Shown piece after piece: positions 5,001 to 6,800 of a stretch of DNA of 10,988 nt (the first letter of the stretch is position 1; each line of letters opens with the position of its first letter). Origin of the DNA: an uncultured Bacteroidales bacterium (lineage in GTDB: Bacteria > Bacteroidota > Bacteroidia > Bacteroidales > UBA932); assembly GCA_946617545.1 (NCBI GenBank), contig CAMOKK010000026.1:1-10988 (forward strand), given 5' to 3'. The notes below the pieces were generated by a model that saw only the letters and a program-made list of their open reading frames with translations, was not told the origin of the DNA and did no database searches. The translations under genes were made by a program, and so were the position numbers.

Positions 5001-5007
5001 TTTTGGG

Positions 5008-5114
5008 TTGACAGTTAAGTGATTGACTGTCATTGACTTGTAGTACATTTCTCGTTCGGTTTTTGAACGAGAAATGTATTGTATATTGCAGAGTATCAAC
5101 GGCTTACTTGTCAA
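5008..5114. repeat. 107-bp symmetric palindromic element, copy 1
   Basis: Structure: 39-nt left arm (5008-5046), 11-nt stem (5047-5057), 7-nt T-rich loop (5058-5064), 11-nt stem (5065-5075), 39-nt right arm (5076-5114). The stem is perfect and extends to 14 bp (5044-5057 with 5065-5078). Read inward from both ends, the arms begin TTGACA-N2-TAAG-N3-TTGA, followed after 3 nt by TC; the rest of the arms is diverged. It starts 7 nt after the symporter stop codon. Its right arm overlaps the end of the transposase gene, whose stop codon (5104-5106, minus strand) is the conserved TAA of the arm. The hairpin lacks a U-tract on either strand, so it is not a canonical terminator, though it may slow or protect convergent transcripts. 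Aligned without gaps it matches copy 2 at 74 of 107 positions by hand count, 28 of 29 in the core. Confidence 0.85.
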
Positions 5115-6024
5115 GGGTAAGGTGGAGGTATTTGGCAATCTGGCGGGGTAGGGCGGTGGTTCGGCGTGCCAGCTCATCGGCCAGGGCCTTCCTGAGGGAG
5201 ATGGGCAGGGAAGGAATCTCACGCGGATGGCCGATATGCCCCTCCTTCAGCAGGATGCGGGTGCAATCTCCGTACACGGCGTCGGAGTAGCTGAGGCGGT
5301 CTTCGCGGATGTCATAGTCGCTGCCGGTGTTGTCACGGAAAGAGCGCAGCATGGCCTCGTAGTTCCCGTAATAGCCGATGGCTTCCCCATAATCGATTAC
5401 ATTCCAAAGGCCGATAAGGCAATCGGCCAGATACTGCATCTGCTCCGCGCTCAGGCAGCTTCGCCATCGCTCCAGCTGACAGTACTGCAGATGCCCGTTT
5501 CCCTCGCGGATGCGCTTGGCTTCCCGGAGGATGTTCCGCAGTTTGGCGGGCAGTGTGGCCGTATTTCCGGAGGGAGAATACGGATGTGCCTCCCGGGCAT
5601 AGAGCAGGAAATTCCAGCGGTAATCCTGAGCCTGGTGCACCAGTTTGCGTTCTACGGGATTGTTGTTGCAGTAATTGATGGTGGTTCTGGCCTGCTTGTT
5701 CCCCAGTTTGACGGAACTCATGTAGCGGTGTTTGAACAGCGGCCCTTTCCGGCCCCGGGACTTGTTCCACTCATAGGAAAATAGATGGGTATACTGCTGC
5801 ACAAAACGGGCGAGCGCCATTTCCCCGGGGGCCACCACCACTATGTGCGTGTGGTCCACCATGGGGCAGAGGGCCAGGATGCGGATGCCGAATCGGCCGG
5901 CCACCGTACACACGATGGTAAAAAAGACAAGGAAATCACTGACGGTGTAAAAAACGAGCACGCCGCCCACCGTCTGCTGGCAAACGTGATGCACCTCGCC
6001 GGGATATACTTTTCGCGTCTTCAT
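5104..6024 (-). CDS. IS200/REP-associated (RAYT-like) Y1 HUH transposase
   Basis: 306-residue protein whose first ~145 residues match the Y1 transposase (IS200-like/RAYT) fold. MVDHTHIVV (55-63) gives the HUH pair H58/H60 that binds the metal. The segment from YTHLFSYEW through GPLFKHRYMS (78-103) to INYCNNNPVERKLV (116-129) parallels the RAYT block ending in 'RYIxxNPVRAGLV'. Y118 is the likely nucleophile, an inference from position. Typical RAYTs are ~150-200 residues; here ~160 more follow (LRNILREAKRI, ISLRKALADEL, ALPRQIAKYLHL), the last part resembling a C-terminal DNA-binding helix-turn-helix. I chose the ATG at 6024 (MKTRKVYPGEVHHV) over an in-frame start at 6042 because homologues begin near this motif. 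The stop codon lies inside repeat copy 1. Such enzymes cut and join single-stranded DNA at hairpins. It appears intact and is more likely a domesticated RAYT than an active IS200. Confidence 0.82.
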   Translation of the reverse strand: MKTRKVYPGEVHHVCQQTVGGVLVFYTVSDFLVFFTIVCTVAGRFGIRILALCPMVDHTHIVVVAPGEMALARFVQQYTHLFSYEWNKSRGRKGPLFKHRYMSSVKLGNKQARTTINYCNNNPVERKLVHQAQDYRWNFLLYAREAHPYSPSGNTATLPAKLRNILREAKRIREGNGHLQYCQLERWRSCLSAEQMQYLADCLIGLWNVIDYGEAIGYYGNYEAMLRSFRDNTGSDYDIREDRLSYSDAVYGDCTRILLKEGHIGHPREIPSLPISLRKALADELARRTTALPRQIAKYLHLTLDK

Positions 6025-6115
6025 GGCGCAAGATATCCACAAGAAGGCTCAGAAGCAAGAATCGTAAAAAAAGTTGTGTTGTTTTACATGCTTTTTGTGT
6101 GTTTCTTACGATTTT
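6025..6115. other. 91-nt spacer between the 180-aa gene and the transposase
   Basis: A/T-rich spacer. It contains an 8-bp inverted repeat (6060-6067 with 6106-6113) with a 38-nt loop, too open to call a terminator. On the minus strand TATCTTGC lies 3 nt before the transposase ATG and is one base short of a TAnnTTTG box. No other signal is visible, so co-transcription with the upstream gene and a separate weak promoter are both possible. Confidence 0.4.
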
Positions 6116-6658
6116 TCACTCCCAAACCACCCAGCTCCGGTCCAGCAAAATGCGCTTGGGCGCCCCGGCCGCTCCGCCAATCTGGTAGTCCGGAATGCGG
6201 TCTGTCAGGAGGGCCACCGCCCGGTTCACCCGGGCAATGTTCACGTTGACCTCGTTGTTGAAGCAGTCCAGCATCCGCGCCACCCGCTCGTCTATGGCCG
6301 ATGGGTCGCAGCTCCGGCTCACTCTGCGGTAAAAGCTCCGGAGCTCCCTTTCGTAGGAGGCCATCTGCTTGAGCGGAATTCCCTCCGGGTGCCTCAGGAA
6401 CAGGAGTAGGACAGACTTGGCCATCGGCCTAAGCTTGAGTTCGCTCGGGCCGATATAAATCCGCAGTTCCCGCGTTACCCTTACCTTCCGGACCGGTAGC
6501 GGCGGCCTCACGCCCCGCCTTTCCATCTCCTGCGACGCCCGCCTCACGAAGGAAAGCAGTTCCTCCGTCTCCATTTCTTCCAGGCGGTTTCCATAAAGCT
6601 CCTGCGGGCTTTCTAACGCCACGCCTGTCAGGTAAAACAGTGCCAACAGTGCCGTCAT
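6116..6658 (-). CDS. Uncharacterised 180-aa protein, 'LLFLRHPEGI' Bacteroidota family
   Basis: Function unknown. The sequence resembles, from memory, a common unnamed Bacteroidota family with the core MAKSVLLLFLRHPEGIPLK (79-97), a following ERELRSFYRRVS helix, a variable loop, then VNVNIARVNRAVALL and an ending like YQIGGAAGAPKRILL-(x)-WVVWE. Residues 1-15 (MTALLALFYLTGVAL) are hydrophobic and could be a weak membrane anchor or simply a helix; ELLSFVRRASQEMERRG (34-50) is a charged helix. The C-terminal part is rich in Arg and may bind nucleic acid or be a winged-helix-like regulator, but I see no motif that proves it. It lies upstream of, and in the same direction as, the transposase (91-nt gap), and the two are the only genes between the 107-bp repeats. 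A TATCTTTG box ends 4 nt before its ATG. Confidence 0.75.
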   Translation of the reverse strand: MTALLALFYLTGVALESPQELYGNRLEEMETEELLSFVRRASQEMERRGVRPPLPVRKVRVTRELRIYIGPSELKLRPMAKSVLLLFLRHPEGIPLKQMASYERELRSFYRRVSRSCDPSAIDERVARMLDCFNNEVNVNIARVNRAVALLTDRIPDYQIGGAAGAPKRILLDRSWVVWE

Positions 6659-6662
6659 GCTG

Positions 6663-6670
6663 CAAAGATA
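6663..6670 (-). promoter_or_regulatory. Possible -7 box immediately before the 180-aa gene
   Basis: On the minus strand TATCTTTG is a perfect TAnnTTTG match ending 4 nt before the ATG at 6658. A TTG (complement of 6695-6697), lying in the outer arm of repeat copy 2, is 24 nt upstream, slightly too far for a normal -33 element. If used, the transcript would be essentially leaderless, and the repeat would supply part of the promoter. Confidence 0.4.
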
Positions 6671-6690
6671 ACACTAAGGCTCCAATCCCC

Positions 6691-6797
6691 TTGACAACTA
6701 ACTTGTTGATTATCATGTGTTTCCCGTACATTTCTCGTTCGTTTTTTGAACGAGAAATAGTATGCAAGTCTATGAGGTTCAATTACTTAGCTGTCAA
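6691..6797. repeat. 107-bp symmetric palindromic element, copy 2
   Basis: Same build and length as copy 1: left arm 6691-6729, stem 6730-6740, T-rich loop 6741-6747, stem 6748-6758, right arm 6759-6797. The 11-bp stem sequence is identical to copy 1 and the loop differs by one base, with the same strand orientation. Both arms, read inward, again begin TTGACA-N2-TAA-S-N3-TTGA with TC 3 nt later. The left arm ends 33 nt from the 180-aa gene start; the right arm ends 3 nt from the T-tract of the rpmH terminator. The core has been kept while the arms diverged at unconstrained positions, which suggests selection on, or recognition of, these particular bases. Confidence 0.85.
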
Positions 6798-6800
6798 GGC

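Follow-up and report, generated by a model that had tools for sequence, protein, structure and literature searches.

A probable REPIN-like hairpin family beside a RAYT-type transposase in uncultured Bacteroidales, with ends that appear to have changed in place

Background

The described systems closest to the one considered here are the REPIN/RAYT systems of Proteobacteria, reportedly set out by Bertels and Rainey in 2011 and by Nunvar in 2010. Here we examine a stretch of 10,988 nucleotides (hereafter the window) from an uncultured Bacteroidales bacterium (assembly GCA_946617545.1, contig CAMOKK010000026.1), in which two long palindromes bracket a RAYT-like Y1 HUH transposase and an open reading frame (ORF) of unassigned function, ORF180. 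We argue that the palindromes probably belong to a dispersed, REPIN-like family served by this transposase, and that the ends of resident copies appear to have changed in place between related species.

The relevant passages of Quentin et al. 2018 (PMC6006769) give Y---NP as the signature of class 2 Y1 transposases (TnpAY1), and describe both subclass 2.6, from Bacteroidetes, with 'atypical secondary structures', the motifs NH[LIV]H, WQ and YIH[QN]NP and a median length of 179 aa, and subclass 2.4, with 'double foot' REPs (repetitive extragenic palindromes), the motifs NH[IFV]H, WQ and YIxNNP and a length of about 194 aa. In the TnpAREPs covered by the corresponding part of PMC8266576, the foot and the palindrome both matter. 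Under the term 'orthoswitch', a section of Nunvar, Licha and Schneider 2013 (PMC3686654) infers that a mutated flanking REP multiplies, both classes of repeat being present. RAYTs and their repeats are kept for very long although the function of the enzyme is unknown, according to part of PMC8049555.

Repeat units and their distribution

We refer to the metagenome-assembled genome (MAG) that holds the window as G000, to a relative of the same genus as G019, and to fetched loci by L-numbers; positions 1 to 107 are those of the unit in the original prediction, and 0 and 108 lie one base further out. The exact core, TCTCGTTC-N7-GAACGAGA, occurs at 27 places in G000 (1.30 Mb, 57% complete), and one extra copy with CCTCGTTC/GAACGAGG, a C-G variant, brings the total to 28, which bears out the expectation of many dispersed copies; the reversed control pattern gave 0 matches. 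Wherever a G000 copy is not cut by a contig end, the whole unit is present, with minor changes at a few ends. Units truncated at contig ends (L110 and the first copy of L133) were excluded from unit statistics. Among 61 genomes, the exact core is found in G000 and G019, both of which have a close transposase, and in none of the other 59 relatives. G019 holds it at 37 places, 4 of them on contigs judged redundant by eye. In a further search of this genome, five contig pairs were redundant by eye (L264/L265, L267/L073, L268/L078, L269/L091, L270/L089), so that its 40 exact core hits represent 35 distinct complete units. The prediction that the core occurs only with the transposase therefore stands for its exact form; the C-G form was searched in eight genomes (G005, G061-G065, G000 and G019), all of which carry a 63-100% identical transposase.

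A scan of named genomes returned six loci with 66-86% identical transposases, all from uncultured Bacteroidales or Bacteroidia MAGs, one of which was taken as G019; the other five genomes have 13, 39, 44, 45 and 27 core places, nearly all of the C-G form. G005, whose transposase is 63% identical, has a different core at 55 places, which is absent from the 60 other genomes, and retains the CCTCGTTC core once, within a unit that has partly decayed, which fits descent from a common family. Some units stand in close tandem, like small BIMEs (bacterial interspersed mosaic elements), at L038 2473-2771 (G005, ~134-bp spacing) and L164 1501-1649 (G064, ~126-bp spacing).

Both window copies have the layout of 39-11-7-11-39 (107 nt) and the identical 11-bp stem (ATTTCTCGTTC/GAACGAGAAAT) first noted for them, and our recount agrees with the reported matches, 28 of 29 positions in the core and 46 of 78 in the arms; moreover, the proposed arm motif fits all four arms and occurs nowhere else in the window on either strand. 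Outer pairs are formed at 22 of 39 positions in each copy, and the three window strands folded gave z = -6.6, -5.9 and -4.8 against shuffles. Given these values, the 27 exact core places with their C-G variant and the empty control, chance is ruled out as the origin of the window palindromes. The exact outer border of the original prediction needs correction, as pairing reaches one base further out. Across 60 units of G000 and G019, tip positions 0 and 1 pair in 0.82 and 0.97 of units, a signal boosted by species-specific bases (position 0 has z = 5.7, inflated by the different bases in the two species), and the unit is therefore better taken as 109 bp; window copy 1 has a G/G mismatch at position 0. 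In folding, some arms form their own hairpin (L105, window copy 1), and other units form one long hairpin.

Change of the ends at orthologous copies

We aligned 21 same-site copy pairs between G000 and G019 (owing to an inversion, L113/L079 replaced L115/L079 in the ancestry analyses below). The two genomes differ at position 1 in 42 of 42 ends and, at position 0, in 37 of 42, whereas within each genome these two positions are 0.91 and 0.88 identical. No other change accompanies the new tip in all 21 pairs, only positions 1 and 107 differing throughout. With dS (synonymous divergence) of 0.26-0.49 between the two genomes in four genes, about 22-36% of neutral sites would be expected to differ, not all. 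The arm interiors retain a memory of their site, with an identity of 0.73 between orthologues versus 0.60 between other copies, and the orthologue is the best arm match in 13 of the pairs.

Retained locus ancestry was calculated as (orthologous - non-orthologous identity)/(1 - non-orthologous identity). Between G000 and G019 it is 0.03 (95% -0.01 to 0.07) at positions -3 to 1, 0.06 (95% -0.13 to 0.26) at 7-9, 0.39 (95% 0.23 to 0.53) at 12-16 and 0.47 (95% 0.35 to 0.59) at 18-39. Against G061 and G062 (44 arm pairs, 14 copies), it is -0.03 to 0.01 at positions 0-9 and 0.29-0.39 in the arm segments, and stem pair 43 differs in all 44 chosen arm pairs. This set consists of 22 pairs from the 14 copies, 8 of which were compared with both G000 and G019, and draws on a listing that gives 17 of 21 entries as orthologous, among which L131/L167 and L178/L180 hold the same copies; L183, which also matched L094:1233 in G000 and L085:4191 in G019, was paired by eye with L094:2499 and L085:2959, a choice that excludes the one G000 unit sharing the C-G core.

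The tip reads CTTGACA at 45 of 54 ends in G000, with T at position 1 in 52 of 54, and GGTGACA at 57 of 66 ends in G019, so that the TTGACA-type ends originally proposed hold for the former genome and give way to GTGACA in the latter. Tips in G061 include CTTGATC (12) and CTTGACA (7) among 26 ends, those in G062 CTTGGCA (29) and GGCGGCA (9) among 76, and those in G063-G065 are mostly NGTG among the units read (6/44, 17/45 and 20/27), with at least 23 of 40 ends in G065 reading GTGG. As exceptions, one G000 unit and one distinct G019 unit have the C-G core yet carry the tips of their own genome, one G019 unit has T on one side and G on the other of the changed core pair, and a further G019 unit, which is decayed, retains the C-G core without tips. 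The aligned loci show that the tip and one apical pair changed at orthologous sites, the same copies having been altered where they stand.

Pairing within units

In the same 60 units, pairing at stem positions 37-43 exceeds that of shuffles (z 4.2), whereas positions 2-39 taken as a whole, in an unpicked test, pair less than shuffles (z -4.35). The 'variable' columns also under-pair (z -5.6), these having been chosen after the pairing profile was seen. The first principal components of left and right arms are anticorrelated (r -0.48), and in 38 of the 60 units their signs are opposite, so that the under-pairing could in part stem from an asymmetric ancestor whose copies lie in random orientation. 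Once units are oriented on positions 23-39, under-pairing persists at 7, 12, 14-16 and 20-22 (z -4.6; 8 positions) and is gone at 26-30, 33 and 36 (z -1.1), with test positions again picked after the profile was seen. Pairing is maintained in the apical stem, and certain arm positions avoid it. The G005 family, of which 15 units were read, has another tip (CTGG) and core and shares one scaffold with the present family: a tip block that ends in TAA, then N4-YTGA-N3-TCA-N5-TT and a family-specific apical stem.

Transposase and neighbouring genes

The fold of the transposase (Table 1) is that of a RAYT, with E. coli TnpAREP (4er8) as best structural match. Across 18 aligned sequences, H64, H66 and Y124 (the HUH motif and single catalytic tyrosine) are invariant, as are Y124, N128 and P129 of the class 2 signature, and the window protein has T as the middle residue of the HUH motif, where the others have L, I, V, F or Y. 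The closest relative, in G019, is 86% identical. In this lineage the gene has the RAYT habit of vertical inheritance and of being flanked by its own dispersed repeat, and by fold, catalytic residues and genomic habit we regard the enzyme as a RAYT, encoded in the window by a single, apparently tamed gene.

Table 1 Coordinates of the features described in the window
Feature	Position	Strand	Remarks
Palindromic unit 1	5007..5115	.	109 bp including positions 0 and 108; 107 bp of the original prediction, 5008-5114
Palindromic unit 2	6690..6798	.	109 bp; 107 bp of the original prediction, 6691-6797
Core hairpin of unit 1	5047..5075	.	11-bp stem, 7-nt loop; pattern searches
Core hairpin of unit 2	6730..6758	.	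Pattern searches
Left tip block of unit 1	5007..5018	.	GTTGACAGTTAA
Right tip block of unit 1	5104..5115	.	TTACTTGTCAAG; conserved TTA is the transposase stop codon (TAA of unit 1)
Left tip block of unit 2	6690..6701	.	
Right tip block of unit 2	6787..6798	.	
RAYT-like Y1 HUH transposase, 312 aa	5104..6042	-	
ORF180, function unassigned	6116..6658	-	Adjoins the transposase in 8 species; predicted model pLDDT 72

No protein family scored above cut-off for ORF180, with one sub-threshold Pfam match (E 0.097). Other genomes carry distant relatives (32-40%) within open frames as long as 454 aa (L140-L146), and ORF180 may therefore belong to a wider family. Two species (L134 4227-6113, L135 4093-5989) have the block of ORF180 and transposase inverted with respect to MFS and RsmG; a hairpin unit lies at both junctions, as though these units had been the endpoints of the inversion (compare window 5007-6798).

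Other transposase lineages

At 13 of 31 loci with transposase relatives, a strict stem search found the same core on both sides, and 12 different cores in all (counted by eye over 30 loci plus L092, leaving out L131-L136; six loci, L058-L063, hold weak, partial relatives). Different hairpin families adjoin different transposase lineages. The core of G028, under a strict pattern, matches that genome only, at 3 places, two of which adjoin its transposase. Contig C12 of G000 (L092 1812-3001) encodes a further RAYT-like transposase, the second of this genome, which is about 37% identical and has a separate hairpin family, the core of which occurs at 7 places in G000, 10 in G019 and none in the 59 other genomes. 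The ends of this second family, counted by eye, read [CG]CGTG in 13 of the 14 that belong to 7 units of G000 and in 16 of the 16 that belong to 8 units of G019, orthologous pairs not having been formally tested; that they are alike in both genomes argues against a general mutational cause or bias behind the tip change in the first family.

Genomic placement

Of the 61 copies, convergent genes flank 27, divergent genes 8 and co-oriented genes 19, with 7 not assignable, and all but one fall outside ORFs as called mechanically; many start within some 15 bp of a called ORF end. Five G000 copies lacking an orthologue among the fetched G019 loci were traced in G019, which gave one clean empty site (L102/L150, at a stop codon), two sites with both flanks around other sequence and two with one flank, and no unit at any of the five. 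Conversely, ten G019 sites sought in G000 yielded two one-sided matches without a unit and nothing at the other eight, as expected with G000 only 57% complete.

An inversion of ~2 kb distinguishes G000 from G019 (L113 101, L115 2959, L079 2959-5606), with one unit at each G000 junction and one intact and one decayed unit at those of G019. Just beyond the tip, at -1 to -5, T-rich/A-rich stretches flank the G019 units, and this genome has about 10 nt extra beside the tip at several orthologous sites. No intrinsic terminator was detected at the two window units, with three terminator-like sites in the region versus 2.5 expected, and no Rfam family was matched, two weak microRNA matches lying far below gathering scores.

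Discussion

We assign a probability of roughly 0.8 to the reading of these units as REPIN-like, non-autonomous, imperfect hairpins of about 109 bp, with the adjacent, vertically inherited RAYT-type Y1 transposase as their cognate enzyme. The REPIN-like character that was originally suspected is supported by the dispersed copies and by the exact core being confined, among the 61 genomes searched, to two with a close transposase, and this co-occurrence suggests that the transposase maintains the family. The tip and apical stem most likely constitute the recognition parts, because both change together by genome. Folded, a unit would be paired at its tip, have internal loops along the arms and end in a perfect apical stem, and the transposase would bind single-stranded DNA folded on this stem and tip, make its cut close to the tip, much as TnpAREP does beside its REP, and copy units only rarely. 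As its specificity drifts, resident copies would adapt where they stand, most likely because each is selected to stay recognisable, stepwise via mismatched intermediates, and we infer that such selection is the simplest account of the switch.

Several observations weigh against this reading. The case is known from sequence, no movement, binding or cutting having been observed; the MAGs are incomplete, and related copies and species are not independent, so that z values are overstated. For 8 of the 21 pairs, the orthologue is not the best arm match, and the sole clean empty site, L102/L150, shows gain or loss with no recognised target-site duplication. Tips in G061-G065 are mixed, 'one tip per species' holding well for G000 and G019 only, and with 3 places of the G028 core, dispersal may not extend to every family. 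The transposase, at 47.4 bits, misses the cut-off of 80 for the NCBIfam equivalog REP_Tyr_transpos. Additionally, G019 has the second hairpin family and no detectable second transposase of the C12 kind, so that tracking between repeat and enzyme is imperfect; REPs are also reported where the RAYT seems lost, in a passage of PMC3686654.

A potential alternative for the tip switch is short exchange, in which the transposase would cut near the conserved TAA and end blocks of ~13 nt would be swapped or copied between units, as end-by-end conversion. Such exchange would suit the loss of locus ancestry from -3 to +9, which includes positions 7-9 that vary within each genome, and its return at 12, the same picture with G061 and G062, and the single units in those two genomes that have two different tips. 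However, the interval at positions 7-9 is wide, the core pair was likewise altered at resident copies, one unit being in a half-changed T/G state that point mutation explains at once, and a tract of about 13 nt is shorter than RecA usually needs; we consider this exchange possible but rather doubtful. A related proposal, which we think unlikely, is that the RAYT, or a RAYT-dependent process, edits resident repeats by swapping these blocks between units on single-stranded DNA. If true, a whole repeat population could change its recognition ends without moving, by an active concerted evolution that keeps enzyme and repeats matched.

Other readings concern the nature of the units. They might be host elements (bidirectional terminators, RNA processing or nucleoid sites) independent of the transposase, as could be suggested by the 27 convergent versus 8 divergent placements, by the many units kept at the same site between species and by an apparent ordinary terminator, a hairpin and T-run seen by eye, in G019 (L151) at the site of a G000 unit (L109). 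Their presence tracks the transposase lineage, as far as searched, which makes such independence improbable; a host role could also hold alongside the preferred explanation. The Y1 transposase with hairpins on both sides also recalls an ordinary IS200/IS605-like insertion sequence, with lone units as deletion derivatives or ends, but rather than moving as a transposase with left and right ends the block is syntenic in 8 species, and lone complete units lie elsewhere, so that we hold this to be very improbable. Finally, the outward reading of the arms gives EREMYYKSM-like strings, with codon position 3 the most variable (mean entropy 1.16 vs 0.80 and 0.83), as though a conserved peptide were spelled; in-frame stops in many of the 70 arms read led us to reject coding arms, which are next to inconceivable.

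Sister species share many copies site by site, and under the preferred reading of REPIN-like hairpins with a cognate RAYT, enzyme-repeat co-evolution can be read directly, with bases sorted into those that are recognition-like (changing together), structure-like (covarying or avoiding pairing) and locus-ancestral. How a dispersed repeat population follows its enzyme becomes a testable question, and Bacteroidales gain an example that combines a defined unit with its cognate enzyme and with natural variants. Our literature search, which covered papers outside subscription, turned up no account of the present repeat family, and none of orthologous copies that change in place.

Comparison with known systems

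As in the proteobacterial REPIN/RAYT systems, including E. coli TnpAREP, a low-copy, vertically inherited Y1 HUH enzyme is flanked by its own dispersed extragenic palindromes (60 of 61 copies outside called ORFs), a genome may hold more than one enzyme/repeat pair, and orthologous enzymes have different repeats. However, whereas proteobacterial REPs are 20-40 nt with a GTAG/GTGG foot, the unit here appears to be a single hairpin of ~109 bp, its apical stem and tip being specific to the family, and the tips common in G000 and in G019 lack the canonical GT[AG]G foot (the mixed tips of G065 include GTGG ends). Copies number tens in this lineage instead of hundreds, the enzyme has 312 aa with a conserved C-terminal part, and the repeats change in place.

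Set against the passages on TnpAY1 in PMC6006769, the system resembles subclass 2.6 in its Bacteroidota host, its class 2 Y---NP enzyme and its atypical flanking hairpins without GT[AG]G, with further copies in the genome, yet the window protein differs in having DHTH, EWN and YCNNNP and 312 aa; a few aligned relatives have NHFH, NHIH or NHYH. With subclass 2.4, as characterised there, it shares a palindrome that has a foot at one end and the complement of this foot at the other, a Y motif with NNP and the GTGG of many G065 ends, and differs in its HUH and W motifs, its length (312 vs 194 aa) and the lack of GT[AG]G noted above. The 'orthoswitch' as outlined in PMC3686654 is similar in that RAYTs orthologous between related strains have different repeat variants beside them, but here the change is seen at the orthologous copies themselves. 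The system works like a RAYT with its REPINs and is no textbook REPIN, but a known kind in an unusual form.
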